Positions 5,001-38,873 of a stretch of DNA of 43,124 bases are shown piece by piece. This stretch comes from an uncultured Bacilli bacterium. Its GTDB lineage: Bacteria > Bacillota_I > Bacilli_A > RF39 > UBA660. The notes beneath the pieces are model-generated. The model did not search any database. It was given only the letters and a program-made list of their open reading frames with translations, and was not told the DNA's origin. Each line of letters starts with the position of its first letter. Position 1 is the first letter of the stretch. The translations under genes and the position numbers were made by a program. Where the stretch lies: positions 1 to 43,124 of the forward strand of contig CANQIN010000004.1 in the NCBI GenBank assembly GCA_947623995.1. The letters run 5' to 3'.

Positions 5001-5266
5001 GATTTATTTGGTTCTTCTACCTTAACAATTTCAAAAGCACTTGTATCAACTGGTACTTCTATACCAACTGCTGCATATTCGGTTGCTCCTTTTAACCCAA
5101 CATCCAAAACAATTGTATCCCCTGGATGTGCTTCTGTAATACTGACACCCTCAGAATCTTTTACTTGTACAGTAAATACTGAATTTTGATTTGCTAATAC
5201 ATAAATTGGTATTGCAAACACTAAAAGTACAAGTAAAAATAATGACATTTTTGATAATTTTTTCAT
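1997..5266 (-). CDS. Wall-anchored cohesin scaffold with ten Big_2 domains and SPQTG sorting signal
   Basis: A surface protein of about 1089 residues. Order: signal peptide (about 1-26); one cohesin-like domain (about 27-185), with HPGDTIVLDVGLKG, then AAVGIEVPVDTSAFEIV and GAFGKMTLKVKD; ten bacterial Ig-like group 2 repeats of about 80-90 residues, each with W-S-S/E-x4-A-V and G-x-V/I-T-A-x3-G signatures; an acidic linker; then SPQTG, a hydrophobic helix and a positively charged tail. SPQTG fits the (S/P)PxTG motif known for class B sortase in Clostridioides difficile, and a class B sortase is the next gene upstream. ATG 5266 is chosen because AAAGGG lies eight bases before it; a GTG nine bases earlier sits on that site. 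The Big_2 stalk probably holds the cohesin away from the wall. Confidence 0.88.
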   Translation of the reverse strand: MKKLSKMSLFLLVLLVFAIPIYVLANQNSVFTVQVKDSEGVSITEAHPGDTIVLDVGLKGATEYAAVGIEVPVDTSAFEIVKVEEPNKSTYVDYYTTFGAHAAAASNDNTKGMFTASFAEADAINTNYNGAFGKMTLKVKDNAAGDYEFKATVTEFKKKLSEDAGNDEDITTYTTEVGKIKILVPATGINVKEENVDLFWGDTYQIDVTPTPANTTTAKDESYSILSGESVTVSTTGKVEAVKNGETKVKVSAYGYDKTITFNVTNPIKELQLDQSDVELEILDKQNNGGGITYGSINVTPNIVLQNPDGNSSDDETITWESKENSIAKVEDGKITAVSGGTTQIIAKTTTGISASVNVTVKVPITSASISETADITLNRGATKDLSVTYYPLNTTDNKTIKWESTKPQVATVNNGKVTAVSGGDTVIKASIGEYNFEVNVHVFVDIDSLDILDEDFSLVAPQTKKLNLQINPSDTSEKSKITWESDHEDIVSVDPDGTVHALQPGDATITVRYKDKSDSVNIKVLIPIDSITILPNSDITMNKGETKNLSVDIQPATAEEDKTVTWESDNPNVATIDKTSGLLKAVGGGSATITARLKNGKTATATVTVKVPVTEVILEDGKESINVNKNTTKTIKIKINPSDYTDTTPTHWESSSEEVATVNQNGEITALSNGQTIITATKDGKSDTIIVYVITPIESVVINEKSGLTDNTMQLEKNHETNLTATVNPSDTNEEYTLKWSSSDDDIASVSATGVVTAKKAGTVTITATANNKSDSIKVNVFVPISSFTPTKEDIEIIKGKTFKVSYQINPSDATESKVIAWSSSENSVATVNSEGVITALKEGTTVITGTLKNGMSININVTVKIIPLNDIEISAPEEMLKGETYDMEITPDPIDTTELNNVLYSSSDESILTVDENGKVTALKEGEAKIKVTVGEIEKEITIKVNEIHVEKIQINSLDELTVGNGGKLGVSAYPANNTDNLTYTYESSDESILTIDKDGNFKALASGTVTITVTASNGQKQTLTVKVMAKPVEDEHTSDENVTNNEDLVSPQTGATSNIVNLILSIISLGLIGVFGYAKHKIIKNN
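2000..2110 (-). other. Sortase sorting signal of the scaffold (SPQTG, helix, basic tail)
   Basis: The codons for SPQTG occupy 2096-2110. They are followed by about 20 hydrophobic residues and then K/H-rich residues to the C terminus, the three-part layout of a cell-wall sorting signal. Confidence 0.85.
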
Positions 5267-5323
5267 TACTTTCACCCTTTCAATTTATTCAAATTTATCA
5301 CTTTAATCTTATCACTTTATTTT

Positions 5324-6055
5324 TTAATTGACAAGATTTTTTTCTTGGCTTTTTATGGCATGAACAATAATCCTTTTTTTGCCATTATTATTGCATGTTG
5401 ATAATGTAAGTGTCTTATCTTCTATCTTATTATATATATAATTTGAAGAAGATAAATCATAGTTATTCTTATTAATATCTAATGGTAATTCATCAGTTGG
5501 TGATGCTAAATAAGTTCTATAAATATCATAAGTTATTTCTTTATCAATTGTTGTAATTTTAATACTTATTTTATTTCCTAAATTACCATTTATTATTTTA
5601 ATCAAATCACTAAACATGGCCTCAGTATTCATATTATGACCATATATTATGGTATTATTATCATTAAATTCATGATTTCGATAATCCATAAATATTGAAC
5701 CATTACGATTATATTCTTTATTTATATCTCTATTTAAATAATAATTATTATTGCTTCCCTGTAATATTGGATAATTAATATTCGTATTTGGAATTGAAAT
5801 CCAACCTTTTACATCAGAATTTACCTCTTTTAATTTTTTTACATCAATATAATCATTAATTTCATTTGAATTATCATCTTCATTAATAATTGTATAATCA
5901 TTAATAATTTCTTGATACAAATTATTATTTTTTTTATCTTCAAATAAATTATGAAAATAATTATAAGAAGATAAAATAAAAATTATGATAAGTAATATTA
6001 ATATAAAATTTAAAATAAATAATTTATATTTCTTTTTTAATTTAAGTTTAGCCAT
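5324..6055 (-). CDS. Class B sortase
   Basis: A transpeptidase of 243 residues that would join sorting-signal proteins to the cell wall. It has an N-terminal membrane helix (about residues 11-30) with the enzyme outside. Class B features are visible: the KGWISIPNTNINYPILQ segment, the NRDINKEYNRNGSIFMDY stretch, catalytic His140 in YGHNM, Cys221 in LSTC and Arg228 in the strand after it. The start overlaps the stop of the upstream dockerin gene by eight bases (ATGGCTAA), and its ribosome site AAAGGA lies inside that gene's last codons. It sits between the dockerin cargo genes and the scaffold that bears SPQTG, so the scaffold is the obvious substrate. The substrate link is inference; the family call is firm. 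Confidence 0.93.
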   Translation of the reverse strand: MAKLKLKKKYKLFILNFILILLIIIFILSSYNYFHNLFEDKKNNNLYQEIINDYTIINEDDNSNEINDYIDVKKLKEVNSDVKGWISIPNTNINYPILQGSNNNYYLNRDINKEYNRNGSIFMDYRNHEFNDNNTIIYGHNMNTEAMFSDLIKIINGNLGNKISIKITTIDKEITYDIYRTYLASPTDELPLDINKNNYDLSSSNYIYNKIEDKTLTLSTCNNNGKKRIIVHAIKSQEKNLVN

Positions 6056-8783
6056 AATATAATCCTTTTTTCATATATAATCTTAAAATATCAACTGCAT
6101 CAATAGCCGTAATTCTTTGGTCGTTATTAAAATCACCTATTTCTATTTTATGATTAGTTAATTCTCTTTTTCCTAAAGCATAATATAATGCTTCTACGGC
6201 ATCTATTACTTCTATTTTACCATTCTCATTTAAATCACCTTTTAAAACATCACCAACAACTACCGTACATTTATCACTATATCCATTAGAAGCTGTAACG
6301 GTAATTGTCGCTATACCTTTGCCTGTAGCTTTAATCTTTCCAAATTTATCTACTGTAACAACTCCAACATTAGAAGTTTGCCAATCTGGATAATAATCAT
6401 TAGGATAAGTTGTAACTTTTAAATTTGCTGTATCACCAATATTTTTTAAATTAATAGAATGCGTATCTAAAACAGTATCATAAGAATAAATATTAATATA
6501 TGTTGTAACATCAGAATATCTTCCACTAACTCTATACTCAACATGTCCCATTCCACCTGCTGTAATTAAACCATCTTTAGAAATAATAATTTTAGAAGTA
6601 TTTCCATAACTAAACGAATAATTAATTGTATCATTAGCCGTTTTAGGTTCAATAATTGGTTTTAATTGATATGTTTGACCATTTCTTAAATAAATATCTG
6701 TCTTTTCAAATTTTAAAGAGGTCATTTTACCTATGGCATGAACATTTATTTCAACTTTAATACCACTTCCATCATTAGCAGTTCCAATTAATTTAGCATC
6801 GCCACCAGAAACAGCTCTTATCGTAACATGAGTAGCATCTATTTTATCTATTGCTACTATATCATCATTACTACTTTGCCAATTAATTTTTCGATCATAA
6901 GCAATATATGGTTGTCCAACATAAGTAATAGTTGTAGTTCTTCCTTCAACTAATTCAATATTTTTCTCATCAGGAATTAATTCAATTTCTTCTACTTTAT
7001 ATTTAACATCTAAAGTATAATCTAAAGAAACATTATAACGTTTATTTGTTACAGTGATAGTTGTTGTACCACTTTTTAAAATTGTTACATTACCACTATT
7101 ATCTACTGTTGCAACATAGTCATTACTACTATGCCATTCTAAATCACCATCTTTATTAGTTTTAACACTAAATTTATAATTTTTAATATTATTATCAGTT
7201 ATGTAAACAGTTTCATCTCCAACCCTTTCAAATTCTATAGATGAAGATGTTTTAGATATATCTAATTTATAAAAAGTAAGCCCATTGCTATCTTCTTGTG
7301 TCCAATAAATCAAATTACCTTTAGTATTTAAGTTAATTAACGATGAAACATTTATTGATTCAATTTCTAAAGGATTTTCTATAATATTACCATCACTATC
7401 AATTATCATATAATAATATTTTGAATCACCACTAAAATAATATTCTTTATCATGAGGAGCTGTCCAATTTTTTAAACCTTTTTCTAACCAAATAATCGCA
7501 ATATTACCATTATCTAATTTAGTTGCTCTTACATTAACAACACTTTTATTATAATCATTATAATCGGTTATCCATTTAACTCCATAATCAATAACTTGGG
7601 AATTAGATAACCTAAATTCTCCTTTATTTTGAATACTAGTTCTTTTTTCTTCACTTTTTCTTAAATCAGTCTTAAATTTTTGTAAAGTTTCGGAACTTTT
7701 GCCTTCAAAATTTTTATCTAATTTTTGAATAAAAATATTTCTTGGTTCATTAACTGATGAAGAATTAGCATAGTTTAATGATAAAGTTTTTTCACTAGCA
7801 CCTACAACTAAATAACCATCATTAAGTTCAATAATGTTTCCTAAGTTAGCATATGTATTATTATAACCATATTCACTATCATTTGCTTCACGAAAATGAA
7901 AAATATTATAAAGGTTATATTTAGCAGTTAAAGGATTACTGATACCATTTGTTTTAAATACTACTAAACTTCTGGGATTGGCATCTCCTTGATCGGCCAT
8001 TAAAAATTCATTATCACTTGTTCCAATTATTCTTTGAGCAAAAGAATGAGAAACCCAATGATACCTATTAATTCCATAATCGGTAAAATCACTAGATTTA
8101 TTTAAACAATCTAAAGAAGTAGCATCAAAAAATAAGGCAAAACTCATTTGATGACCATTATACATTTCTCTTGCAAAATTAACACCTATTATCCCATTAG
8201 ATACAGCCATATCAGCATTTCCAGCATTAAAAGCAATTTTTGTTCCATATTCTTTATCGTAACTAGTTAAACGACTTTTTGTTAAAGTAGGACTCATATC
8301 ATAGCCTTTTACTGATATTGTTTTAACTATCCCACCATTAGTATCATATTTGGCTAATAAAATAGTCGGTGTTGAAGCATAATCAGGACTACTTGCATCA
8401 ACTGTTTTATTATCAGTTGTTCCATATAATACATATAAATAGTTATTATAATAAAGAGCTGTTCCAAATAATGTTAAATAACGATTAATAGTTTTTTCTG
8501 AAACTTTATTACCATCTAAATCAAAAGTTGCCCATCCTAGCTTACTACTATTATTTTTTATTTCATAAATAACATTATAATTATTTTTATCATCAATAAA
8601 TTCATAATAATTAGCTTTTTCAGGATAATAAATAGTTCCATTGGCTCCTAAATCCTTAATTTCTTCTGGAATATTTTCAAGAGTAATCTTTTTTTCCTCA
8701 ACATAAGCTGTATTATAGGCTAAAACTTTAATTGGTATTAAAAATAGAATACTTAATATTAAAATCATTTTTATCTTTCTCAT
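6048..8783 (-). CDS. Secreted dockerin protein: beta-propeller-like region, Big_2 domains, C-terminal dockerin
   Basis: A 911-residue protein. Residues 1-22 are a signal peptide ending VLA. Residues about 40-510 are an unrecognised beta-rich region with repeated strand pairs such as LYVLYG, NEFLMADQ and GYLVVGASEK, which looks like a propeller but has no catalytic motif I can name. Residues about 515-845 hold four Big_2-like domains. Residues 847-911 are a type I dockerin with two calcium loops, DLNENGKIEVID and DFNNDQRITAID. Unlike its two siblings it ends KKGLYYG, because the reading frame continues through the ribosome site of the sortase gene. AAAGGAG eight bases before the ATG supports the start. 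It is the third gene of the operon, after the CAP-dockerin gene. Function unknown; probable surface or matrix component. Confidence 0.85.
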   Translation of the reverse strand: MRKIKMILILSILFLIPIKVLAYNTAYVEEKKITLENIPEEIKDLGANGTIYYPEKANYYEFIDDKNNYNVIYEIKNNSSKLGWATFDLDGNKVSEKTINRYLTLFGTALYYNNYLYVLYGTTDNKTVDASSPDYASTPTILLAKYDTNGGIVKTISVKGYDMSPTLTKSRLTSYDKEYGTKIAFNAGNADMAVSNGIIGVNFAREMYNGHQMSFALFFDATSLDCLNKSSDFTDYGINRYHWVSHSFAQRIIGTSDNEFLMADQGDANPRSLVVFKTNGISNPLTAKYNLYNIFHFREANDSEYGYNNTYANLGNIIELNDGYLVVGASEKTLSLNYANSSSVNEPRNIFIQKLDKNFEGKSSETLQKFKTDLRKSEEKRTSIQNKGEFRLSNSQVIDYGVKWITDYNDYNKSVVNVRATKLDNGNIAIIWLEKGLKNWTAPHDKEYYFSGDSKYYYMIIDSDGNIIENPLEIESINVSSLINLNTKGNLIYWTQEDSNGLTFYKLDISKTSSSIEFERVGDETVYITDNNIKNYKFSVKTNKDGDLEWHSSNDYVATVDNSGNVTILKSGTTTITVTNKRYNVSLDYTLDVKYKVEEIELIPDEKNIELVEGRTTTITYVGQPYIAYDRKINWQSSNDDIVAIDKIDATHVTIRAVSGGDAKLIGTANDGSGIKVEINVHAIGKMTSLKFEKTDIYLRNGQTYQLKPIIEPKTANDTINYSFSYGNTSKIIISKDGLITAGGMGHVEYRVSGRYSDVTTYINIYSYDTVLDTHSINLKNIGDTANLKVTTYPNDYYPDWQTSNVGVVTVDKFGKIKATGKGIATITVTASNGYSDKCTVVVGDVLKGDLNENGKIEVIDAVEALYYALGKRELTNHKIEIGDFNNDQRITAIDAVDILRLYMKKGLYYG
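6069..6246 (-). repeat. Dockerin-coding direct repeat, copy A
   Basis: 178 bases encoding the C-terminal dockerin. They match copies at 8800-8977 and 10829-11006 with only one or two visible substitutions, far closer than the rest of the three genes. Recent duplication or gene conversion is the likely cause. Confidence 0.9.
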
Positions 8784-8796
8784 TATCTTTGCTCCT

Positions 8797-10797
8797 TTAT
8801 TTCATATATAATCTTAAAATATCAACTGCATCAATAGCCGTAACTCTTTGGTCGTTATTAAAATCACCTATTTCTATTTTATGATTAGTTAATTCTCTTT
8901 TTCCTAAAGCATAATATAATGCTTCTACGGCATCTATTACTTCTATTTTACCATTTTCATTTAAATCACCTTTTAAATAAGGCGTAATTCCTGTTCCTAC
9001 TTTTACGGTAGCTTCAGCACTTTTACCATTACTTGTTGTAACAGTTATGGTACATGTTCCGTTTCCAATTCCCGTAATTTCACCTTTTCCAGCAACTCTT
9101 GCGACATTTACATTATCACTTTTCCATGTTAGAGTTGGACTATCTGTGGTATCAGTTGGATTAATTGTTGCAATTACTGTATCTTTACCACCTATTTTTA
9201 AAGTGATATTGTTTTTATTTAAATTAACACTTTCAATTTCTTTATAACCATTTGTATAGAAAAAATTATCATTGTATATATCTAAAATACTAGTTATATC
9301 TTCTAAATCAATATAGCCATTATTATTTATATCTCCTAAAATATTAATATCTTCATCAAAAGTTGCTGATATAGAATAATCTTGTAACATCGATGAATCA
9401 ATTGAATTAATATTTCCATCTTTGTTTACATCACCAATGTATCCTTTAGAACCGTCACTTAAGGTTACGGGAACACTTACATATATTAAGCAACTTGCAC
9501 TTCCATATTTTAAAGAAGTTGCAGTTACCCGAACAAATCCTCCTCTTTTTGGAGTTACTACCCCATTATTTACACTAGCAACTAAATCGGAGTCCGTTTT
9601 CCAAGTTACATCGTTTGCTTTACTTCCATTACTTAATGTTGCTTCTAACTTTAAAGTCTCATTTAAACTATTAAATTGATATTGAGTATTATTTAACTTT
9701 AAACGAATATCTTCTTCTACTTTTACTTTAAAGGATGCTCGAAAACTTTTATTTATAGACATTCCCGAAACATTTATAGTGGTACTTCCTTTGGAAACAC
9801 CGACTATTTTATCATCTTCTATTTTAGCAATTTCTGGACTTTGCGATGTATAGGTAACAGAGTATATTGTCGCATTACTAGGAACGATAGTAGGACTAAT
9901 TTTTTTAGTTTCATTTATTTTTACAGTCATATCATTTACACTAAAGCTATCCATTATATAACCAACATCAATTGGAAATTCTTTTTCCATACCAAACATC
10001 GATGCTTTGAAAGTTGTTTGTCCTTCTTTTACTCCCATTATCAAACCATCTTTTAAACTTAAATAAGGACTATTTAAAGTATTAAATTTAACATTAGAAA
10101 TATCAATGGTTGCTTTGGTATCTTCATCACTAATATAATAGGCATTTTTAATGTTTAGGGTTTCTCCTATGCCAACATAATAATGTTCTGTCGTACCATT
10201 ATAATTACTATGATATAAATTAAAATCATGAATATATTCGGGAATACTTTCTACATATTCAATCATCGTATCACTTTTTCCAGTTTTATTTGGAGTACTT
10301 ATGGCATCATATCTTGAAAACATTTGAACAGCAAAATAAGTTTTTGAACCACTATATTCTACAGCAACAGCTCCAATACCAACAGATTTATAATCTTCCT
10401 TAATCATATTTTTATAATGCCCTGGCGATTCTTTCCAACCATACATTACCCCAGAATTCCCTGTTCTATATCCATATAAAATATTTTCACCTGAAGCACT
10501 TGGAGTTGAAACAGCTGTATAAAATGATTTACCATTAGGTCTTGTATGGTCAAAATGAACAGCAATTTCAGCTGCTCTTTTCATGGCTGCTTCTTGTAAA
10601 TTACTATCCATTGTTAAAGGTTCACTATTTACTTCTTTTCTTACTTCATTTGTTGCAGTTAATGCTTCATTGGCCCAATCATAATCCCTTATTACAGTTA
10701 TAGGAATATTATAGGATTCTAAAGCATGAGCATTATTGCAAAATAAGCCAACTACAATCAGCAAAACCGTAATATATAGACGCATCAATCTTTTCAT
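8797..10797 (-). CDS. Secreted CAP (SCP/PR-1) domain protein with Big_2 domains and two dockerins
   Basis: A 666-residue protein. Signal peptide about 1-25 (ends NNAHA). The CAP domain at about 40-165 shows the bacterial YkwD-like pattern: His84 in HFDHTRPNG, Glu104 in GENILYG, His127 in SPGHYKNM, then GIGAVAV and YFAVQMF. Next are Big_2-like domains (about 280-450), an internal dockerin-like pair (DVNKDGNINSID and DINNNGYIDLED), another Big_2, and a C-terminal dockerin at about 608-666 that ends MK. AGAGG eight bases before the ATG supports the start. Its last 300 residues are paralogous to those of the next gene upstream. CAP proteins in bacteria are of mixed or unknown biochemical role, so the activity is not assigned; docking to a cohesin is inferred from the dockerin. 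Confidence 0.9.
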   Translation of the reverse strand: MKRLMRLYITVLLIVVGLFCNNAHALESYNIPITVIRDYDWANEALTATNEVRKEVNSEPLTMDSNLQEAAMKRAAEIAVHFDHTRPNGKSFYTAVSTPSASGENILYGYRTGNSGVMYGWKESPGHYKNMIKEDYKSVGIGAVAVEYSGSKTYFAVQMFSRYDAISTPNKTGKSDTMIEYVESIPEYIHDFNLYHSNYNGTTEHYYVGIGETLNIKNAYYISDEDTKATIDISNVKFNTLNSPYLSLKDGLIMGVKEGQTTFKASMFGMEKEFPIDVGYIMDSFSVNDMTVKINETKKISPTIVPSNATIYSVTYTSQSPEIAKIEDDKIVGVSKGSTTINVSGMSINKSFRASFKVKVEEDIRLKLNNTQYQFNSLNETLKLEATLSNGSKANDVTWKTDSDLVASVNNGVVTPKRGGFVRVTATSLKYGSASCLIYVSVPVTLSDGSKGYIGDVNKDGNINSIDSSMLQDYSISATFDEDINILGDINNNGYIDLEDITSILDIYNDNFFYTNGYKEIESVNLNKNNITLKIGGKDTVIATINPTDTTDSPTLTWKSDNVNVARVAGKGEITGIGNGTCTITVTTSNGKSAEATVKVGTGITPYLKGDLNENGKIEVIDAVEALYYALGKRELTNHKIEIGDFNNDQRVTAIDAVDILRLYMK
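8800..8977 (-). repeat. Dockerin-coding direct repeat, copy B
   Basis: The same 178-base unit as copies A and C, with one I-to-V coding change in RxTAID. Identity with copy C continues without a break for about another 80 bases, to about 9060, into the neighbouring Big_2 domain and then decays. Confidence 0.9.
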
Positions 10798-10825
10798 AAA
10801 AAATACCTCTTTTTCATTTTTTCTC

Positions 10826-13657
10826 CTATTTCATATATAATCTTAAAATATCAACTGCATCAATAGCCGTAATTCTTTGGTCGTTATTAAAATCACCTAT
10901 TTCTATTTTATGATTAGTTAATTCTCTTTTTCCTAAAGCATAATATAATGCTTCTACGGCATCTATTACTTCTATTTTACCATTTTCATTTAAATCACCT
11001 TTTAAATAAGGCGTAATTCCTGTTCCTACTTTTACGGTAGCTTCAGCACTTTTACCATTACTTGTTGTAACAGTTATGGTACATGTTCCATTTCCAATTC
11101 CTGTAATCTCACCTTTCCCATCAACTCTTGCAACACTTGCATTATCACTTTTCCAAGTTAATTTAGGACTATCAGTAGTATCAGTTGGATTAATAGTCGC
11201 AATTAAAGTATCATTACCACCAATATTTAAAGTTATATTGTTTTTATTTAAAGTAACACTTTTTATTTCTTTATAAGCTCCTGGAGTAAAATATCGATAT
11301 TTATATAAAGACATTATTACAGCACTATCAGCAGTAGTTATTCCTCCATCATTATCTAAATCACCAATTAATATCTGGTCTTTATTTGCTCCATATTTAA
11401 ATAAATTTAGGATTTCACTAGAATCAGCCAAATCAAATTGTCCATCTTTATTTAAGTCACCAACATATTGTTTAGAACCATCACTTAAGGTTACGGGAAC
11501 ACTTACATATATGTAACAACTTGTACTACCATATTTTTTAGAAGTTGCTGTAGCATAAACAAGTCCACCTCGCTTTGGTGTTACTAATCCATTATTTATA
11601 CTAATAACTTCATTATTATCAACACTCCAAGTTACATCATTTACTTTACTGCCATTATTTAAAGTAGCTTCTAATCTTAAAGTTTCATTTAAACTATTAA
11701 ATTGATAAATACTATAATTTAATTTTAAATAAATATCAGTAACATTAACATTTATTGTGGTAGTATTACCTGTAACAGTTTTAACTGAAATAGTTGTTTG
11801 ACCTTTAGAAAGTAATTTAATTTTACCATTATCTACTGTTGCAACACTTTTATCAGTACTATCCCAAATTAATTTTTCAGGATAATAATATTTAGGAGTT
11901 AATGTATACTTTAAATCAATAACGTCATTTACATTACCATTTATTTCTTTATCGCTAAATGTTACTTTAGAAACTAAATCTTGATATTCTATATTATTAT
12001 TTTCAGCATAAGAAGCAGTTTTAGTATTTTCATGTAAATAGACAGTTGATGTTAAATCACCAAAATTCATATAATCAATATTTTCACTTTCAATAATAAT
12101 TTCTTCTAAATTTTTACTATTATTAAACGCATTATCACCAATTTCTTTAACATTAGATGGAATTATAACAGCATTTAATTGATTAGATTGACTAAATGCT
12201 GAAGCACCAATATATTCTACACTTGATGGAATAGTTAAAACTCCAGTTAAATTACGATTCCAAGAAAATGTACCACTAGAAATATATTTTAAATTATTAC
12301 TAAGTTTTAATGAACTTATATTAATTTCATCAAAAGCAGAACTACCAATATAAGTAACATTATCAGGAATAACTAAATCTCCTTTAATTGGTACATAAGT
12401 AAATGCACTACGACCAATAGATTTTAAAGTTGTTGGTAATTTTAAAGTAGTATCAAAACTTTTAGAATAAGCAAAAGCATTATTACCAATATATTCCAAT
12501 TGACTAGGAAGTTTTAATTCACCAGAAAATGAAGAATTTCTAAATGCTTCGATACCAATTCCAATTACAGGTTTATTATTTATTTTATCTGGTAAAACTA
12601 AATTACCACTCGGAATTTCCCCATTTTTTCCTTCAGCACCTAAAATTACAATATGTTTATTTGATTCAATATATCTTAATCGATAATTTTCATTAGTAAC
12701 ATCATAATATCCAAGTTTAGACCAATCATTTAAATTTCCTAATTTATTACTAGTAGCCTTGTTATTAGAATCTAGAGTTACATAATAAATAATTCCATCA
12801 ATGGTATATACCCCATTAATAGTAGCTGAAGATGTAGAAGATTTGATTTTATTAATAGCATTATTAGTTATGTTATATGTATATAAATTTTTATCATTAC
12901 CAACATAATATAATAAATTACCATCTTTTACTAAACCAGAATTAAAATTATCATATAAAGCATCAGCAATTTTTTCTTTACTACCACTATTAATATTTTC
13001 TTTATATAAAGTACTAGCCCATCCAGGTTTATATTCACTATCAATATAATATTTATAAGTATCAGTATAATATGTTTGAGAATATATTGAATAATCATTT
13101 TGACTAGTTACACCATTAGGAAAAGATGAAGAATTTTTAAAAAAATTATTACTATCTAATCTAACATCTGAAAAATTAAACATTGATGCCAATTGTTTTG
13201 GAAAGTCATCTCTACTCTTAAATTTAACCGTAAAATCAATACGGTTAGGATGATTACCAGTTCCTGCAGTTGCATCAAAATAAGTCCATTCATTATCTAA
13301 GTTACATATGTTCCAAGCATGGTCACCCATATTACTAGATACTCTTTCACATGATAATCCAGCCGTTTGATTTAATAATCGAAAGGCATCATTAAAACCA
13401 GCACATACAGAATTATGTTCAAGAAATACTGAATAATAGCTTTGGTCATATTTTGCAGCTCCATAATCATTTCCAAGTTGTGTATAAACTCCAAAAAACA
13501 TTGCCTTATCATGGTCACTCATATTATCATTTACCTGTTCCATAGCATACAAAATATTTTGCTCAATTAATGCATTATCACTATCATCAAGAGCTTTAAC
13601 CACATTAATAAAACTTAAAAAAACAATAATAACAAAGCTTAATCTTATTTTACGCAT
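10826..13657 (-). CDS. Secreted transglutaminase-like, BspA-type LRR protein with Big_2 domains and two dockerins
   Basis: A protein of about 943 residues from ATG 13657, chosen because AAAGGA lies ten bases before it and a signal peptide starts directly. An in-frame start 21 codons earlier lacks these. Order: a transglutaminase-like core with Cys85 in NSVCAGFND, His113 in GDHAWNI and Asp128 in YFDATAGTG, a complete triad; a beta-strand region resembling propeller repeats; six or more BspA-type leucine-rich repeats (GNNAFAYS, GRSAFTYV, GSSAFDEI, GASAFSQS, GDNAFNNS); Big_2 domains; an internal dockerin-like pair (DLNKDGQFDLAD and DLDNDGGITTAD); Big_2; and a C-terminal dockerin. It is the first gene of the operon. 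The triad suggests protein cross-linking or cysteine proteolysis outside the cell; which one is not known. Confidence 0.9.
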   Translation of the reverse strand: MRKIRLSFVIIVFLSFINVVKALDDSDNALIEQNILYAMEQVNDNMSDHDKAMFFGVYTQLGNDYGAAKYDQSYYSVFLEHNSVCAGFNDAFRLLNQTAGLSCERVSSNMGDHAWNICNLDNEWTYFDATAGTGNHPNRIDFTVKFKSRDDFPKQLASMFNFSDVRLDSNNFFKNSSSFPNGVTSQNDYSIYSQTYYTDTYKYYIDSEYKPGWASTLYKENINSGSKEKIADALYDNFNSGLVKDGNLLYYVGNDKNLYTYNITNNAINKIKSSTSSATINGVYTIDGIIYYVTLDSNNKATSNKLGNLNDWSKLGYYDVTNENYRLRYIESNKHIVILGAEGKNGEIPSGNLVLPDKINNKPVIGIGIEAFRNSSFSGELKLPSQLEYIGNNAFAYSKSFDTTLKLPTTLKSIGRSAFTYVPIKGDLVIPDNVTYIGSSAFDEINISSLKLSNNLKYISSGTFSWNRNLTGVLTIPSSVEYIGASAFSQSNQLNAVIIPSNVKEIGDNAFNNSKNLEEIIIESENIDYMNFGDLTSTVYLHENTKTASYAENNNIEYQDLVSKVTFSDKEINGNVNDVIDLKYTLTPKYYYPEKLIWDSTDKSVATVDNGKIKLLSKGQTTISVKTVTGNTTTINVNVTDIYLKLNYSIYQFNSLNETLRLEATLNNGSKVNDVTWSVDNNEVISINNGLVTPKRGGLVYATATSKKYGSTSCYIYVSVPVTLSDGSKQYVGDLNKDGQFDLADSSEILNLFKYGANKDQILIGDLDNDGGITTADSAVIMSLYKYRYFTPGAYKEIKSVTLNKNNITLNIGGNDTLIATINPTDTTDSPKLTWKSDNASVARVDGKGEITGIGNGTCTITVTTSNGKSAEATVKVGTGITPYLKGDLNENGKIEVIDAVEALYYALGKRELTNHKIEIGDFNNDQRITAIDAVDILRLYMK
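10829..11006 (-). repeat. Dockerin-coding direct repeat, copy C
   Basis: Third copy of the 178-base dockerin unit. It matches copy B through about 11089, after which silent and coding differences accumulate. Confidence 0.9.
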
Positions 13658-13792
13658 TTTTAACCATTCCTTTTCATATAATATATAATTTTCAAAGATT
13701 AAAAAACTACAAATTATCAACTTTTTTTCTTTATAAACATTATATTAAAATCATATTAAAAATGCAATTGTAAAAAATTCAAATGTAATTCT

Positions 13793-15048: not shown

Positions 15049-16113
15049 TTAATTTTTCATTGAATCTAATTTTAATAAACTTTTTAATAAATAATACATT
15101 ACATTAACAACAATAGAATTACCTGCTTGATTATACAATGCAGTTTCACTTTGACATACGTTGCTTGCTTTTTCAAAATCACTTTCATCAAATCCCATTA
15201 ATCTCCATGCTTCCTTAGGTGTAACTTTTCTTATTCTCATTTTTTTTCTTTCTATTACAGCTATTTTTAAATTATCAGCTGTATTTGATGCTGTTAATGT
15301 AGGTGCATATCCTCTTTCAGAAAAAATTCTTGATGATTGATTAAATTTCACTTTTTTATCAACACCACATAATTTTCCATTTTTAAATTTTTCTAAATCA
15401 ATCTCATATCTGTAATCATCACTATTTTTATCTTTAAATAATAATTTATTTGCTTTCTTTTTACTTTTTCTATTTGTTAGATAATATTTTTTATCCACAT
15501 TATAATCTAAAAAATCTTTTAAATGACTACTATTTTTTATTGGTTTTGGAAATTCAAAATCTCTTTTTTCTAAAAAAGCAATTAAAAAATACCTCTCACG
15601 TTTTTGAGGTATTTCATAATCAGAAGCTATTAAAACTTTATCATATAAAGTATAACCAATATCTATTAATTCATTTTTAAACATTGCTAAAGTATTTTTA
15701 AATTTTTTACTTGTAATACTTGCAACGTTTTCAAAAATAATTATTTTAGGTTTATTATAAACTTCTTTAAGTATTCTTATAATTTCCCAACCTAAGCTAG
15801 ACCTAGTTGCACTATACATATCAAATCCCTTCATTCTTCCAGAACAAGAAATATCTTGACATGGAAAACCACCAATCCATAAATCGCAATATGGTAACTC
15901 TTTACCATTAATTTTTTTAATATCTCCTAAATTTAAATTTTCACTAATATTGTGAACAGCGCAATAACTTTTTACAGCATTTTTATTTATTTCCGAAAAA
16001 AATTCTAAAGAATAATTATTTATATACCCATTATTTTTTAATCTTTCTAACGCCTTTTCAGGACTTCCTATTCCACTAAAAAATGTACCAACTTTTAATA
16101 TTTTATCTGTCAT
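15049..16113 (-). CDS. DNA (cytosine-5-)-methyltransferase
   Basis: 354 residues with the C5-methyltransferase motifs in order: motif I FFSGIGSPEKALE (11-23), motif IV GGFPCQDIS with catalytic Cys85, motif VI ENV (128-130), motif VIII QKRER (170-174), a target-recognition region of about 190-290 residues, motif IX-like KVTPKEAWRLMGF and motif X NQAGNS (328-333). All are intact, so it should transfer a methyl group from S-adenosylmethionine to cytosine. GGGGG nine bases before the ATG supports the start. No restriction endonuclease is recognisable nearby, so it is solitary here or the tail of a lost system. It lies beside an HTH cluster and behind a terminator-bearing leader. Recognition sequence unknown. 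Confidence 0.93.
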   Translation of the reverse strand: MTDKILKVGTFFSGIGSPEKALERLKNNGYINNYSLEFFSEINKNAVKSYCAVHNISENLNLGDIKKINGKELPYCDLWIGGFPCQDISCSGRMKGFDMYSATRSSLGWEIIRILKEVYNKPKIIIFENVASITSKKFKNTLAMFKNELIDIGYTLYDKVLIASDYEIPQKRERYFLIAFLEKRDFEFPKPIKNSSHLKDFLDYNVDKKYYLTNRKSKKKANKLLFKDKNSDDYRYEIDLEKFKNGKLCGVDKKVKFNQSSRIFSERGYAPTLTASNTADNLKIAVIERKKMRIRKVTPKEAWRLMGFDESDFEKASNVCQSETALYNQAGNSIVVNVMYYLLKSLLKLDSMKN

Positions 16114-16144
16114 TTTAACAAACCCCCTTCATTTTTTATGACAT

Positions 16145-16173
16145 CAAAAAAAGACCTTCACTTGAAGATCTTT
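16145..16173 (-). terminator. Strong intrinsic terminator upstream of the methyltransferase
   Basis: On the minus strand AAAGATCTTCA, a 2-nt turn, TGAAGGTCTTT and a run of T. It could end the P-ATPase operon or a short transcript from the promoter at 16289-16344. It lies 31 bases before the methyltransferase ATG, where it could act as an attenuator. Confidence 0.75.
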
Positions 16174-16288
16174 AAGTAAATATACAAATTTTTAAACAAT
16201 AATAAACTAAATAATACATTTTCTTAAGTAATTGGAAATAGTAAAATCGTTTAAAACCCTAGTATTATAAGGCAATTTATACTTTGGG

Positions 16289-16344
16289 TATATACTTTGT
16301 TCTCCCCCCCTATGTCAATAGTTTTACATCATTTTAAACCACTT
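16289..16344 (-). promoter_or_regulatory. Poly-G spacer promoter element, copy 1 (no surface gene behind it)
   Basis: Minus strand: AAGTGGTTTAAA (16333-16344), 14 nt, TTGACATA with -35 at 16313-16318, seven G, and TATATA (16289-16294) after an 18-nt spacer. The same layout precedes the surface genes starting at 24502 and 38789. Here no reading frame follows. A terminator lies about 110-135 nt downstream, so the product would be a short RNA of roughly 137 nt or a leader for the methyltransferase. The rest of 16174-16288 shows nothing else recognisable. Confidence 0.6.
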
Positions 16345-24502: not shown

Positions 24503-24524
24503 AAAATCACCATATTCTATAATG

Positions 24525-24581
24525 ATTATAACTCTTGACCCCCCCCCTATGTCAACATTTAAATATTATTTTAAACCACTT
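24525..24581 (-). promoter_or_regulatory. Poly-G spacer promoter, copy 2 (nine G)
   Basis: Minus strand: AAGTGGTTTAAA (24570-24581), 14 nt, TTGACATA with the -35 at 24550-24555, nine consecutive G, and TATAAT (24525-24530). The spacer is 19 nt, two above the optimum, so loss of G residues by slippage would bring it to 17-18 and should raise transcription. The upstream box directly follows the stop codon of the RhuM-Fic gene. Confidence 0.65.
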
Positions 24582-25535
24582 TTATAGAAAGTTCATTACT
24601 AAATCAATTATTATTTCCTTTTCTTTAGGATTAGATTGAGCAATAAGTAAAGTAATTGCTACAAGAGTATTGTTATCTATAATTAGTTCATTTTCTTTGT
24701 ATAAAATATTATAAAAATTTAAAAAGAAAATAAATAAAGTAGCCGCAATTCTTTTATTACCATCAATAAAAGTATGATTTTTAGTAATTAAATATAAAAA
24801 ATTAGCAGCTTTCTCTTCAACAGTAGGATATAAATCATTACCATCAAAAGATTGATATATATTATTAATAATTGAATTTAAACCTTTATCTCTTTCTAAA
24901 GCAAACAATTCACTATCACTGTTAAATTTTAATTTATTAATAACATCAATACAATCTTCATAAGTAACTTTTTGATTATTTCTAGTACCTTTAGGTTTTG
25001 TTACTCTCTTATGGTCATAATCATCAAGCAAATTTAAAGCATTTGAGTATTCATTAATTACTTTAATTATTTCTTTAGCTTCATTATCTTTTAAATCACT
25101 ATCAATTCTTCCAGCAATATTAATTAACTTAACAGTTTTTTCAAGATATTCTAATCTTTTTTGATTAACTGCATAACCTTTAACCATATAATCTTTTAAA
25201 ACATTAGTTGCCCACTTTCTAAAAATAATACCATTTCTTGACTTAACTCGATAGCCAACACTTATAATCATATCAAGATTATAATATTCCAATTCTCGAG
25301 TTTGAGTTTTATCCTTTAAAGCCCCATGTTTAGTGGTATGTGCAAATTTTGCACATACTTCATTTTTTACTAATTCTCCTTCATTAAAAATATTATTAAT
25401 ATGTCTAGTAATAACAGTTCTATCTCTATCAAATAATGTTGCCATTTGTTCTTGGGTAAGCCAAACCGTTTCATCTTTCATATTTACTTCTAATTTAACA
25501 TTTTGATTTTCAAATAATATAATTCCATTTTTCAT
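24582..25535 (-). CDS. RhuM-family protein with C-terminal Fic/Doc domain
   Basis: About 317 residues. The N-terminal two-thirds is the RhuM family: ETVWLTQEQMATLFDRDRTV with a helix-turn-helix-like start, then ISVGYRVKSRNGIIFRKWA. The C-terminal third is a Fic/Doc fold with HTFIDGNKRIA, where His254 is the expected catalytic residue for moving AMP or phosphate onto a protein. AGGAGGAG nine bases before ATG 25535 sets the start; the TTG two codons earlier is too close. Promoter TTGACA-18-TATAGT and TAGCA/TGCTA dyads lie upstream, as for self-regulated toxin genes. No separate antitoxin is seen. The target protein is unknown; the name virulence RhuM is historical. Confidence 0.88.
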   Translation of the reverse strand: MKNGIILFENQNVKLEVNMKDETVWLTQEQMATLFDRDRTVITRHINNIFNEGELVKNEVCAKFAHTTKHGALKDKTQTRELEYYNLDMIISVGYRVKSRNGIIFRKWATNVLKDYMVKGYAVNQKRLEYLEKTVKLINIAGRIDSDLKDNEAKEIIKVINEYSNALNLLDDYDHKRVTKPKGTRNNQKVTYEDCIDVINKLKFNSDSELFALERDKGLNSIINNIYQSFDGNDLYPTVEEKAANFLYLITKNHTFIDGNKRIAATLFIFFLNFYNILYKENELIIDNNTLVAITLLIAQSNPKEKEIIIDLVMNFL

Positions 25536-25566
25536 TAACAATTTCTCCTCCTTGTAATTTAATTTT

Positions 25567-32930: not shown

Positions 32931-35900
32931 CTATTGAGCTATAAATGGCGTCCCTTTTTCTCCATTACCGTCTATTATTTTTACTGACGATGATAGATAT
33001 CCGACTGGCTGAACCACGTTCGCATAGAACGCACCGCTGTTGGTGACATAGCCAGACGAATACACACTGAACACATAGCTAAAACTATAATAATTCGGCG
33101 ATGGTATGATTGTCCATGTATTTTTACTTGGTTTTAACCAATCATTTGTGTTACAACTATCATTTCTATAATCAAACATACTTTTTCCTAAACATGTTTC
33201 TCTAACACTATTTCCTACGGCATATCCATAGTCACTTGGATACATTAATCCTATATATCCATCCCATGTTGTTTTTCTTTCTACTTCATCATTACATCCA
33301 CTTCCTCCTCCATAACTTACACATTCTTCTTTTCCATTATGACTTCCTCTTTCTGCTTCGTATGTTCCTCTTGCTGTCAAGGCACTTGTATGATTATTTG
33401 CAAATGTTCCTGTATTCCATCTTACTTTCGCTATCTTGTTCTTTGCTTCGTCACTTAGTCCACTACTTGTAAAGTTACATGTTGTATTTGCTTCTTCTTT
33501 TGCATTATAACAACTTCCACTTCCTCTATTCCAATATAAACTTCCTCCGATTGTTGGTGTTCCACTATATACTGTATTTGGATTTAATAGTTTCATTAAA
33601 TCTGCTTGACTCCATTCATTTACTCCATAGCCACCATTTATTCCTGATGCACTACTATCCCAACTATAACTTCCTATACTTTCTGCTCTTATTATTTTTA
33701 CTAAACTTTCTTGTTGTCCTCCATTATCTAAATTTGTTATGTTATTCATAACTCCTATGATTCGCCATAATATTGGATTTCCATCACCATCTCTATCTCC
33801 TATATCTATATAGTTATTTACTGTTTCATTTGTTCCTATATATCTTAAATTATTATCTAATGTTCCGTCATATGCTAAATTTGTCGTATCAGTATCACCT
33901 AATTTTGCTATTTTACATGATGCACTATCATCTCCATATGTTTTACATATTGCTGCTGATGGCAATAATTTCTTATTTATTGTATAAGCACCTGTCCATC
34001 CACTTGGATTTCCGACATGGTCTACTGCTCTAAAGTAATATGTTGCATTTAATTCTTCACTTATTGTCCATGGATTATTTGGTACCCTTGTTGTACTACT
34101 TTTATCTGTTGAATATTCATAATATGATACACTTTGATTATCTGTTGATGTTAAAGTTATTTTAATGTCATTACCAGTTACTGTTCCACTTGTATAACCA
34201 TTTAGATTTACGGTTGGTACACTTGGTGGTTCTTTATCTATATTAGTAATACTTTGTGCTGTTGGATAAGTATAGATATTTCCTGCATTATCTCTTACTT
34301 TTATTATGATATTACTTTCATTTGCTTGATATTCTTTTTTATTACTTGCTTGCCAATCGGTTCCATTATTAAAACTATAAGCTGCTGTACTATGTAACCC
34401 ACTTCCTCCACTATCTGTTGCTCCATTTATTGTTAAGGTTACATTATCTCTTGTCCATGAACTATTACTTTTACTTACTCCAGTTATACTTGGTAATTCT
34501 TTTTCAATGTTGGTTATTTCTTGTTTAGTTGGATAAGTATAGATATTTCCTGCATTATCTCTTACTTTGATTGTGATATTACTTTCATTGGCTGAATATT
34601 CTTTTGTTGCACTTGCTTGCCAGTCTGTTCCATTATTAAAACTATAGGCTGCTGTATCATGTAATCCACTTCCTCCAGAATCACTTGCTCCTTCAATTGT
34701 TAATGATACTTTTCCATTGGTCCATGCACTTGTACTTTTCTTTACTCCTGTTATACTTGGTAATTCTTTTTCTATATTTGTTATTTCTTGTTTAGTTGGA
34801 TATGTATAGATATTTCCAGCATTATCTCTTACTTTAATTGTAATGTTGCTTTCATTCGCAGAATATTCTTTAGTTGCACTTGCTTGCCAATCTACTCCAT
34901 TATTAAAACTATAAGCTGCTGTATCATGTAACCCACTTCCTCCTGTATCTGTTGCTCCTTCGATTGTTAATGATACTTTTCCATTGGTCCATGCACTTGT
35001 ACTTTTCTTTACTCCTGTTATACTTGGTAATTCTTTTTCAATATTAGTTATTTCTTGTTTGGTTGGATATGTATATATATTCCCGGCATTATCTCTTACT
35101 TTTATTACTATATCACTTTCATTTGATAAGTATTCTTTTGTGGCACTTGCTTGCCAGTCTATTCCATTATTAAAACTATAGGCTGCTGTGTCATGCAGTC
35201 CACTTCCTCCACTATCACTTGCTCCTTCTATTGTTAGAGTTACACTTCCATTTGTCCAACTATCAGGACTCTTTTTTACTCCACTTATACTTGGTAATTC
35301 ATTTTCTATGTTTGTTATTTCTTGTTTGGTTGGATATTCATAAATGTTTCCTGCATTATCTTGAACTTTGATTACAATATTACTTTCATTGGCTTTATAT
35401 TCTTTGGTGTTTTCTAGTTGCCAAGTAGAACCTCCATCAAAACTATATCTTTTACTATCATGTAAGTTACTTCCTCCGGAGTCTTCTGCTCCTTCAATTG
35501 TTAAGGTTACACTTTCATTTGTCCAATTACTGTTACTTTTTCTTACTCCTGTTATACTTGGTAATTCTTGATCTATTTTTAAGGTTGTACTTTTTGTTAA
35601 ACTTTTATTCTTTGCTTTATCATAACATCTATAATATCTTGTTTCATTATGATTTCCTGTATATGTTTTTGATATTGTATTATCACTTAATGTTTCACTC
35701 ATTCTTGTATAGTCATTATCATTTGTACTTTCTTCACAATAATCAAAGGCACTTCCACTAGATATATTACTTATATTTATTTTTACTGTTACATCTTCAT
35801 TTGTCCAACTTGTTTTATCATTTACTACTTCTATTGTTGGAGCATCTTTATCTACTTTTTCTACTGTAATATTTCTACTACTTACATTTCCTACTTGATC

Positions 35901-38789
35901 TTTAACATGGATATACCATTTGGTATTTACATCGACACTTTTCTTATATGTTTGTTCTTCGGTTAAATTATCTTGTTTTGTTAAATTTCCTTCATTTATT
36001 GTTTCACTTGTACTATATTCATATCCGGCTATTCCACTATCTTTATCTATTACCGTTGCACTTATTTCATTTGTTTGTCCCCATTCATTACTTACATTCA
36101 TACTTTTGATATCTGGTCCATCTGTATCGATATTGGTTATACTTTGAACTTCTTCATATGTATAAATATTTCCAGCATTATCTTGGACCTTGATTACAAT
36201 ATTACTTTCATTAGCTAAATATTCTTTGGTGTTTCCTAATTGCCAATTAACTCCTCCATCAAAGCTATATCTATCTTTATCATGTAGGCCACTTCCTCCT
36301 AAGTCTTCTCCTCCATTAATAGTTAGAGTTACACTTTCACTTGTCCAATTACTTTCACTTTTACTTACTCCACTTATACTTGGTTCTGTATGATCGATAT
36401 TTGTGATATTTATTTCTTCATCATAACTTGTCTCATTTCCTACATCATCTTTGACTTTGATTTTTATTCCACTTTTATTATTTTCATACGTCATTTCATT
36501 ACTTTCTTGATAATGTAATCCATCATCAAAACTATATGCTTCACTTGCTAGTTTTACATCATCACTTGCTGTTACTTTTATTGTTACTGATGTGTTTGTC
36601 CAACCTTGTGGTGTTGTTTCCACATTACTTATGGTTGGACCTTGTTTATCAATATTATCTACTTTTATTTCTTTATCATATGTTCTTATATTTCCTACAT
36701 GGTCTTTTACTTGGATACTTATATTTGTATCATTATATTGATATTCTTTATAGTTTTCTTCTATCCAACTTATTCCTCCATCAAAGCTATATGGTTTTGC
36801 GTCTAATTCTACATCATCACTTGCCTTTATAGTTACTGTTACACTTTGATTTGTCATAGTATCAATATCTTTTATTACACTTTCAATTGTTGGTAATTCT
36901 TGATCTATCTTTAATGTTGTATTTATGGTGTTTCCAACATTTCCTACTTTATCATAACATCTATAATATCTTGTTTCGTTATGATTTCCTGTATATGTTA
37001 AAGTTAAACTATTACTTACATCTTTATCTATTCTTGTGTATTCACTATCATCTGTACTTTCTTCACAATAATCTATTCCACTTAAATCATCACTTAAATG
37101 TAATACAACTGATACATCATTATTTGTCCAAGTATTATCATAATCATTTTCGATACTTATTGTTGGTCCTTCACTATCTATATTATCTACTTTTATTTCT
37201 CCTTCATATGTTGCAACGTTTCCGACATGGTCTTTTACTTTAATGATGATGTTTTCATCATTCTTTTGATATTCTTTTTCATTAGATTCTTCCCATACTT
37301 CTCCATCAAAGGTATATGGATTTGCATCTAGCTCTATATCATCATGTGCTGTTATTGTTACTGTTACTTTGCCATTTGTATAGCCATTTTCATCTTTTTC
37401 TACTTTCTCTATTGTTGGTAATGTTTGATCTATTTTTAATGTTGTATTTTCTTTATTACTCTCATTTCCTACTTCATCATAACATCTATAATATCTTGTT
37501 TCATTATGGTTTCCTGTATATGTTAAAGTTAATTTATTATCTGTTATTTCTTGTTCGATTCTTGTATATTCATTATCATCTGTACTTTCTTCACAGTAAT
37601 CTATTCCACTTCCATCTTCAACAATATTTAATACTACTTCTGCATTATCTTTTGTCCATATATCATTATAATTGTTTTCAATTGATATTTGTGGCCCTTC
37701 ATCATCTATACTATCTACATTGATACTATCTGTTTTAACATTTCCCATTCTATCTTTGATATGAATATACCATTCTCCATTTTCACTTATTTGTTTCTTA
37801 AATGTTTGTTCTTCTGTTGTCGCTTCTATTTCATTCCACTCTTTCTCTGGTTCAAAACTTTTGGTTATTTGATATCCTACTATTCCACTTTCTTTATCTA
37901 TTGCTAAAACTTTTATTTCTTTTCTTGTTCCCCATGTTTTATCAATATTTATTTCTATTATTTCTGGTAATACATCATCTATTTTATCTATTGTTATTTC
38001 TTTTGTTGTTATTCCTCCTACTTCATCTTTGATACTTACATAATATTTGCCACTTTCTTTTACTTCTTTTTCTTCTTTTATTTCTTTTTTTTCTTCAATT
38101 TTTTCCCAATTATATTGTCCTTCTTCTTTACTTACACTATATGCTACTATCTTATGATAACTACTATATCCGTGTATTTTTATTGTGTCTGTTTTTCCCC
38201 ATTCTCTTAATTCATTACTTAATACTAATTGAGGTATATAATCTGCTATTAAGGTTATTTTTCCTTTTAATGTTTTATTCATTGAATCTTTATCTTCTAC
38301 TGTTACACTTTCATCCATCCATATTCTTAGTTCATAACTTTTTTCTTCTCCCCCATTTAAGGTTCCTTCTTCTAAACTATATCCTGATTCACTGCTTAAA
38401 GCATTTTCGATTGTTGTAGTTGTTTTATCTAGTTCATTTAAGATTCCATTTTTTATTCCGTTTAAACTTATTGCTACATATTTATCACTTAATGTTGTTC
38501 CTTTTATTAATTCAAAATTTATATTATATCTTGCTGTTGTTTCACAATTATTTTTTATTGTGAATTTATATGGTTTTAAACTTAATCCTTTACTATCTTC
38601 TATTGGTTGAGCATCTTCTAATAAAATATCATCTTCTTCATTGATAATATCTACATCCATACATAAACTTTTTATATAACTACTATCTGTTTGTTCTACT
38701 TTTGTTTGCCAATATCCATATGTTGTACTTAATACAATTATTAAAGACGCTATAATAATTAACATTAATACTCTATATATTTTTTTCAT
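32931..38789 (-). CDS. Giant Ig-repeat surface protein with DUF6273-like C-terminal domain
   Basis: About 1952 residues from ATG 38789 (AAGGTG eight bases before; an in-frame GTG at 38798 sits on that site). Order: membrane helix or signal (about 5-25); a TasA/camelysin-like domain (YGYWQTKVEQTDSSYIKSL onward, to about 190); about 15 Ig-like repeats, including several with CEEST and YTGNHNETRYYRCYD and six with GGSGLHD-like YSFNNG units, five of them in tandem; then a C-terminal domain from about 1605 with WRIIGVMN, YSWDSSASG, WSQADLMKLLNP and LMYPSDYGYAVG, as in the 451-residue protein. No sorting signal is present, so it may be held by the N-terminal helix. The promoter is copy 3 of the poly-G element. 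Probable adhesin or matrix protein. Confidence 0.82.
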   Translation of the reverse strand: MKKIYRVLMLIIIASLIIVLSTTYGYWQTKVEQTDSSYIKSLCMDVDIINEEDDILLEDAQPIEDSKGLSLKPYKFTIKNNCETTARYNINFELIKGTTLSDKYVAISLNGIKNGILNELDKTTTTIENALSSESGYSLEEGTLNGGEEKSYELRIWMDESVTVEDKDSMNKTLKGKITLIADYIPQLVLSNELREWGKTDTIKIHGYSSYHKIVAYSVSKEEGQYNWEKIEEKKEIKEEKEVKESGKYYVSIKDEVGGITTKEITIDKIDDVLPEIIEINIDKTWGTRKEIKVLAIDKESGIVGYQITKSFEPEKEWNEIEATTEEQTFKKQISENGEWYIHIKDRMGNVKTDSINVDSIDDEGPQISIENNYNDIWTKDNAEVVLNIVEDGSGIDYCEESTDDNEYTRIEQEITDNKLTLTYTGNHNETRYYRCYDEVGNESNKENTTLKIDQTLPTIEKVEKDENGYTNGKVTVTITAHDDIELDANPYTFDGEVWEESNEKEYQKNDENIIIKVKDHVGNVATYEGEIKVDNIDSEGPTISIENDYDNTWTNNDVSVVLHLSDDLSGIDYCEESTDDSEYTRIDKDVSNSLTLTYTGNHNETRYYRCYDKVGNVGNTINTTLKIDQELPTIESVIKDIDTMTNQSVTVTIKASDDVELDAKPYSFDGGISWIEENYKEYQYNDTNISIQVKDHVGNIRTYDKEIKVDNIDKQGPTISNVETTPQGWTNTSVTIKVTASDDVKLASEAYSFDDGLHYQESNEMTYENNKSGIKIKVKDDVGNETSYDEEINITNIDHTEPSISGVSKSESNWTSESVTLTINGGEDLGGSGLHDKDRYSFDGGVNWQLGNTKEYLANESNIVIKVQDNAGNIYTYEEVQSITNIDTDGPDIKSMNVSNEWGQTNEISATVIDKDSGIAGYEYSTSETINEGNLTKQDNLTEEQTYKKSVDVNTKWYIHVKDQVGNVSSRNITVEKVDKDAPTIEVVNDKTSWTNEDVTVKINISNISSGSAFDYCEESTNDNDYTRMSETLSDNTISKTYTGNHNETRYYRCYDKAKNKSLTKSTTLKIDQELPSITGVRKSNSNWTNESVTLTIEGAEDSGGSNLHDSKRYSFDGGSTWQLENTKEYKANESNIVIKVQDNAGNIYEYPTKQEITNIENELPSISGVKKSPDSWTNGSVTLTIEGASDSGGSGLHDTAAYSFNNGIDWQASATKEYLSNESDIVIKVRDNAGNIYTYPTKQEITNIEKELPSITGVKKSTSAWTNGKVSLTIEGATDTGGSGLHDTAAYSFNNGVDWQASATKEYSANESNITIKVRDNAGNIYTYPTKQEITNIEKELPSITGVKKSTSAWTNGKVSLTIEGASDSGGSGLHDTAAYSFNNGTDWQASATKEYSANESNITIKVRDNAGNIYTYPTKQEITNIEKELPSITGVSKSNSSWTRDNVTLTINGATDSGGSGLHSTAAYSFNNGTDWQASNKKEYQANESNIIIKVRDNAGNIYTYPTAQSITNIDKEPPSVPTVNLNGYTSGTVTGNDIKITLTSTDNQSVSYYEYSTDKSSTTRVPNNPWTISEELNATYYFRAVDHVGNPSGWTGAYTINKKLLPSAAICKTYGDDSASCKIAKLGDTDTTNLAYDGTLDNNLRYIGTNETVNNYIDIGDRDGDGNPILWRIIGVMNNITNLDNGGQQESLVKIIRAESIGSYSWDSSASGINGGYGVNEWSQADLMKLLNPNTVYSGTPTIGGSLYWNRGSGSCYNAKEEANTTCNFTSSGLSDEAKNKIAKVRWNTGTFANNHTSALTARGTYEAERGSHNGKEECVSYGGGSGCNDEVERKTTWDGYIGLMYPSDYGYAVGNSVRETCLGKSMFDYRNDSCNTNDWLKPSKNTWTIIPSPNYYSFSYVFSVYSSGYVTNSGAFYANVVQPVGYLSSSVKIIDGNGEKGTPFIAQ
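34240..35570 (-). repeat. Five tandem 267-base repeats in the giant surface gene
   Basis: Units of about 267 bases (89 residues) beginning near ELPSITGV and ending TYPTKQEITNI. The three central ones are nearly identical in DNA and the outer ones more diverged. A related sixth unit lies apart near 36130-36390. The pattern suits unequal crossing over and changing repeat number between strains. Confidence 0.85.
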
Positions 38790-38816
38790 TAATAGCACCT
38801 TCTATCCTTTATTAAT

Positions 38817-38873
38817 ATTTTAACATTTAACCCTTCCCTTATGTCAAGTTTAACATATAACTTTAAACCACTT
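38817..38873 (-). promoter_or_regulatory. Poly-G family promoter, copy 3 (tract interrupted)
   Basis: Minus strand: AAGTGGTTTAAA (38862-38873), 14 nt, TTGACATA with -35 at 38842-38847, GGGAAGGG in place of the G run, and TAAAAT (38817-38822) after 19 nt. The same upstream box and spacing as copies 1 and 2. The interrupted tract should be stable, so this copy may not switch. Confidence 0.6.

Follow-up and report, generated by a model that had tools for sequence, protein, structure and literature searches.

Does a run of guanines between the two boxes of a promoter act as a switch for the surface protein gene behind it? The question is raised by a promoter on the minus strand of the window, the whole stretch of 43,124 nucleotides analysed here, which is contig C4 of the genome G000 (1,465,297 bp in 138 contigs, 92.84% complete). 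The promoter is ordered TTGACA, TA, G9, TCAAGAGT and TATAAT (24555-24525; exact sequence check). The -35 box (24550-24555) matches the consensus and the -10 box TATAAT (24525-24530) was found by sequence match. Between them, in a spacer of 19 nt, lies the nine-G tract (24539-24547); no other G/C run in the window reaches 8. A GGTGAT resembling a Shine-Dalgarno sequence (24506-24511), recognised by eye and similar in sister cassettes, precedes the ATG of a 451-residue open reading frame at 24502, 22 nt separating the -10 box from the ATG. Upstream of the -35 box, also on the minus strand, lies the box GTGGTTTAAAATAAT (24565-24579), of the GTGGTYTAA type. The original prediction had described the G9, the TATAAT and the 19-nt spacer in front of the 451-residue gene, and this description is exact on the minus strand. 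It had also held that a G9 at this place is unlikely by chance, which is borne out: over 100 dinucleotide shuffles of the window, the mean number of G8 matches was 0.06 and no shuffle had two, and the reversed form of TTGACATAGGGGGGG has no match genome-wide.

The gene behind the promoter (P0001, 23147-24502, minus strand) encodes a predicted surface protein of 451 residues with an N-terminal membrane segment, a shared stalk and a C-terminal domain. Its assignment as a surface product rests on the membrane segment and on the paralogous family; exposure at the surface is not shown. Neither Pfam (above cut-off), nor NCBIfam at E 0.01, nor the PDB sequences at E 1 gave a match to P0001, and an AlphaFold prediction made with four homologues was of low quality (mean pLDDT 40.4). 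Directly upstream of the G9 promoter, a RhuM-type protein with a Fic domain is encoded at 24582-25541. Elsewhere in the window (1997-13720) we found a cluster of Big_2, dockerin, CAP and BspA-type proteins together with a sortase.

The promoter is not alone, which the original prediction had missed, along with the G10 and 20-nt spacer of most sister promoters and the retroelement described below. Across the genome, TTGACATAGGGGGGG is matched exactly at 13 places and with one mismatch at 14. The 1.47-Mb genome contains 37 G-runs of 7 or more, which we sorted ourselves by context: 26 belong to promoter cassettes of surface genes (paralogues of P0001 in 23 cases, giant repeat proteins in 3), and the remaining 11 comprise six coding tracts, two promoter-like ones at contig ends, one before a BspA-like gene, one before a methyltransferase gene and one that is an ordinary ribosome-binding site. 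Searching with the shared N-terminus returned 37 matches, merged to 34 family loci, with a G tract of 7 or more at 24, none at 7 that could be resolved, and 3 unresolved; the 24 include a locus on C29 at a chimeric-looking contig end, where the -35 box is missing. The GTGGTYTAA-type box, of unknown function, occurs in 16 of 29 cassette-like sites and starts 24-26 nt before the -35 box; in the window it is found at 24565-24579, 16342 and 38871. The window feature is thus real, far above chance and a member of a family. Two contigs, C63 and C74, end exactly at G tracts. These ends hint at mixtures of lengths and deserve little weight, as contig ends also gather at repeats.

Two further copies of the cassette lie in the window, both on the minus strand. 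In the third (38817-38871), with a 19-nt spacer and the -10 box TAAAAT, the tract is interrupted, GGGAAGGG, presumably a stabilised version of the cassette, by inference; behind it lies the gene of a 1955-residue repeat protein (32931-38798, minus strand). The second copy (box, TTGACATA) has a G7 tract at 16304-16310, with unrelated sequence joined downstream, and is followed by a C5-cytosine DNA methyltransferase gene (15049-16113, minus strand; PF00145, E 7e-61). When the methyltransferase region (15049-16318) is compared with that of the congener locus L262, the 470 nt behind the tract show just 2 substitutions, whereas the tract itself is G7 in the window and G8 in the congener. In the two species this region starts directly behind the G tract of unrelated poly-G promoters; we read it as a putative recent transfer with its junction at the tract. 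Two more sequences, both starting with AGA, lie directly behind G tracts in different genomes, one at L256 (G193, C38) and L053 (G000, C56), with 93% identity over 178 nt, the other at L253 and L246. At positions 1-110 of contig C29 (L042), a sequence resembling the acyltransferase-type gene on C8 is joined via a G7 to a surface promoter, either a chimera or a rearrangement.

How long are the tracts, and how far apart do they hold the two boxes? In the window genome G10 is found at 21 of 29 sites, a table that includes one coding tract (L034) and one site cut by a contig end (L049), and in which five TAATAT -10 boxes were re-read by eye. Where the -10 box is TATAAT (21 cassettes), the spacer measures 19 to 22 nt, with a mode of 20; it is 18 to 20 in the five with TAATAT, read by eye, and 18 in the methyltransferase cassette. 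Most sister promoters combine G10 with a 20-nt spacer, and none of the window genome's cassettes measured has a spacer of 17 nt. Among congeners, G071 has G10 at 20 of its 26 sites and G196 at all 7; in the table behind these counts the -10 box was misread at some sites of the TACAAT and TAATAT classes, which appear there with spacers of 11-14. Over 91 tabulated sites in other genomes of the genus, G10 is found at 62, G9 at 19 and G11 at 6, and the spacer is 20 nt in 48, 19 nt in 34 and 18 nt in 5; the optimal 17 nt occurs at none. This table covers the matches listed, among which G071 and others are absent, and omits G000, every one of the 38 rows of G524, where nested -10 boxes give a spacer of 14 or 19, and two rows of G502 that are nested duplicates. 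In a wider collection of at least 130 sites, spacers are 15-16 nt in 74, 19-20 nt in 30 and 17-18 nt in 13; it mixes at least 118 database stretches with six loci and contains single hits in unrelated phyla, many of them perhaps due to chance. Tract lengths taken from assemblies are not fully reliable.

Five flank classes have identical flanks within one genome of the genus and differ as G9 versus G10. As their flanks are identical, such copies differ by an indel within the tract. Variation in length with constant flanks is thus met between paralogues and between homologues, not within one population. Contigs C7, C8 and C10 (L031-L034) also have six poly-G tracts (G10-G11) that interrupt no promoter but fall within envelope- or glycan-type genes. 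Two of the six are out of frame, with the halves of the reading frame in different frames, three are in frame and one is unresolved. A tract inside a reading frame that shifts the frame meets the criterion for a coding contingency locus in the window genome, and this is the classical contingency-locus pattern.

In the proposed mechanism, replication slippage would add or remove a G and so change the distance between the perfect -35 and the perfect -10, which in turn would change transcription of the membrane-anchored protein gene behind the promoter. Because both boxes are perfect and the spacer is off its optimum, expression is expected to depend on the tract. Consensus spacers are mostly 19-20 nt (15-16 nt in other clades) and hardly ever 17 nt, which suggests that the usual length (G10 with 20 nt; G9 with 19 nt in the window) would be a weak or OFF state; contraction to 17-18 nt by rare slippage would then turn the gene ON. 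That losing a G raises expression is plausible and remains an inference. Loss of mismatch repair was rejected, as MutS (MutS_V) is present in the window genome, which speaks for moderate slippage rates.

The tract is best read as a means of phase variation by slippage, slippage in living cells being inferred. We consider it highly probable that the G9 is the switch of a slippage-controlled sigma-A promoter, one of about two dozen cassette copies in the window genome; this is a prediction made without reads, and switching itself is unseen. The promoter had originally been called likely phase-variable, and the claim fits comparative evidence only, with no read variation or expression data: about two dozen sister cassettes with G7-G10, same-flank copies one G apart, G7 and G8 in near-identical homologues, poly-G tracts within genes, two of them out of frame, and the precedent of porA. 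Several points count against it. There are no reads and no second strain in which switching could show; MutS should lower mononucleotide slippage; the proposed ON state of 17 nt is absent from the tabulated consensus sites of the genus (0/91); the reversed control is not empty once the G pattern is loosened; lengths read from assemblies are open to error; and tract lengths are uniform within genomes, as they would also be if the tract were a fixed structural element.

This last possibility is the main rival, and we regard it as improbable. The G tract would be a fixed structural or regulatory element whose changes in length have little effect, either because stacked G's (A-like DNA) make a spacer of 19-20 nt workable or because a repressor binds the tract; a CsoR/RcnR-like repressor is a possible binder. 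The range of lengths is indeed narrow, the total spacer is strikingly constant at 19-20 nt in the genus, an inverted TTGAC...GTCAA flanks the window tract, and a conserved box stands at a fixed distance. However, the tract persists in other clades where the spacer is 15-16 nt, copies with the same flanks differ in length, some copies are interrupted or lost, and the same genome carries poly-G tracts within genes, two of them out of frame.

Less probable still is that the cassettes spread by duplication and gene conversion, with neutral drift in length and no selection for switching. Cassette and N-terminus are repeated and similar among paralogues, as such a spread would have it, but several different flank classes in the genus share the same architecture and tract, and long G-runs are almost confined to surface and envelope genes. 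Very little support is left for the idea that the tract serves mainly as a place where mobile sequence inserts or recombines, on the model of 16304-16310: the methyltransferase region directly behind two unrelated promoters in two species and the second such pair, L256 and L053, are in its favour, yet junctions are seen at only a few of dozens of sites and the usual product is an intact promoter, and the idea is in any case compatible with slippage control rather than exclusive of it. That the tract lengths are artefacts is scarcely credible: these are MAG assemblies, homopolymers are error-prone and contig C29 looks chimeric at its G tract, but the tracts are mostly internal, with conserved promoter flanks, in many independent genomes.

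The architecture extends beyond the window genome. A loose pattern matches 24 of 36 genomes of the genus; besides G000, each of G524, G502 and G071 has over 20 sites. In its strict form the pattern is found in 5 of 193 genomes of the family, a lower bound, as the strict form misses G071, a congener with 26 poly-G sites. By their coordinates, G525 and G515 of one listing are apparently the same genomes as G193 and G196 of another. A scan of one genome per species gave at least 118 stretches, many in rabbit (isolate name Lapin) gut Bacilli and Clostridia and in chicken Faecalibacterium. MAGs of Candidatus Faecalibacterium (L062, L071, L072, L083, L095, L132, L147) have promoters of the form CC-G8/G10-TATGC, several of which precede lipoprotein-like reading frames. 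The poly-C version of the pattern was found in none of 295 genomes, G000 included; the reversed control with looser G patterns was not zero, with 3 matches in one scan and 2 in another.

Part of the same surface family appears to be rewritten at its 3' end as well. Contig C23 carries a diversity-generating retroelement with an Avd gene (NF033474, 81.8 bits, cut-off 80; PF22296, 74.3, cut-off 40), a small MutS-domain reading frame, a reverse transcriptase with a broken frame and a template repeat, which sits behind the end of a surface gene. The reverse transcriptase on C23 is not intact, RVT_1 being split between two frames in the assembly; in relatives, RVT_1 matches lie in one open frame without stops. 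Between the C23 surface gene and the template, 17 of 19 mismatches fall at template adenines (p 4.7e-10). A second target set consists of nine 3' ends, one of them in the window's 1955-residue gene, whose variable region of the retroelement type spans 32983-33103 on the minus strand. Over 30 columns of these ends, 13 are variable at codon position one, 10 at position two and none at position three, versus 9, 6 and 12 over the 70 columns just upstream. Such a codon pattern is the mark of AAY codons rewritten at A, a process that is deduced here and not observed. A second template repeat (C90:2102) was rejected as a clean template, being template-like in its first half only, so the second target family rests mainly on the codon pattern. 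No variable region of this type was seen at the 3' end of P0001, which is not a recognisable retroelement target.

Five of these nine target genes, on C13, C68, C90, C29 and C63, follow a tract of G8 or more; the giant gene of the window is behind the interrupted tract, the one on C43 behind none, and the two on C40 and C19 are fragmentary. Two further genomes also have a retroelement target behind a poly-G promoter, at L322 (G10) and L324 (G9); at L327, L329 and L330 the target has no such promoter. Of 19 genomes that carry poly-G sites, 12 have RVT_1 and 9 an Avd-like reading frame next to it, which in several cases scores weakly; neither count has a control set of poly-G-poor genomes. We lean slightly towards a diversification in two tiers, in which poly-G promoters resting at an OFF length would switch family members on at random and the retroelement would rewrite the 3' tips of some.

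Diversity-generating retroelements of the Bordetella phage type comprise a reverse transcriptase, Avd and a template repeat and make adenine-specific changes at the 3' ends of their targets. The one described here differs in having several targets behind poly-G promoters, a MutS-domain reading frame and a reverse transcriptase frame that is broken in the assembly. No report of a poly-G promoter combined with a retroelement was found in the open-access literature, which is weak evidence of novelty, and none, within the same literature, of phase-variable homopolymer promoters in metagenome-assembled genomes. In the main text of a global retroelement survey the words 'phase varia' and 'promoter' are absent (PMC8144416).

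Among the closest known systems is porA of Neisseria meningitidis: G9-G11 occupy the spacer between the -35 and -10 boxes of a surface protein gene, as in the window, and expression falls from high through intermediate to low as the tract shortens from G11 to G10 and G9 (PMC3639595). With a homopolymer between its -35 and -10, the window promoter meets this porA-type criterion. In contrast to the single porA gene, the gut Bacilli described here have about two dozen paralogous promoters per genome, with consensus spacers of 19-20 nt. In the gut commensal Bifidobacterium breve, G tracts are reported to slip between G10 and G12 in sortase pili genes, much like the coding tracts on C7, C8 and C10; that switch is translational, whereas the window tract lies in a promoter spacer, and the tract lengths in the assembly of the authors' own strain are called not fully reliable (PMC9187656). 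In Streptococcus pyogenes, a reported one-nucleotide indel in a homopolymeric tract near the surface genes Spy1336/R28 offers a Gram-positive parallel, although at a single locus, unlike here (PMC7098570).

It is mainly in pathogens that promoters switched by slippage are known in large sets. The Bacilli genus described here, apparently from the gut, has up to dozens of poly-G promoters per genome that may be of this kind, and the same promoters precede targets of a hypermutation machine. If this is true, the cells of one strain would differ both in the adhesin-like proteins that they show and in the binding tips of these proteins, which would have a bearing on phage escape, host recognition and strain persistence. 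The uniform off-optimum spacers lead to a testable rule, that the mutational resting length is tuned to OFF.
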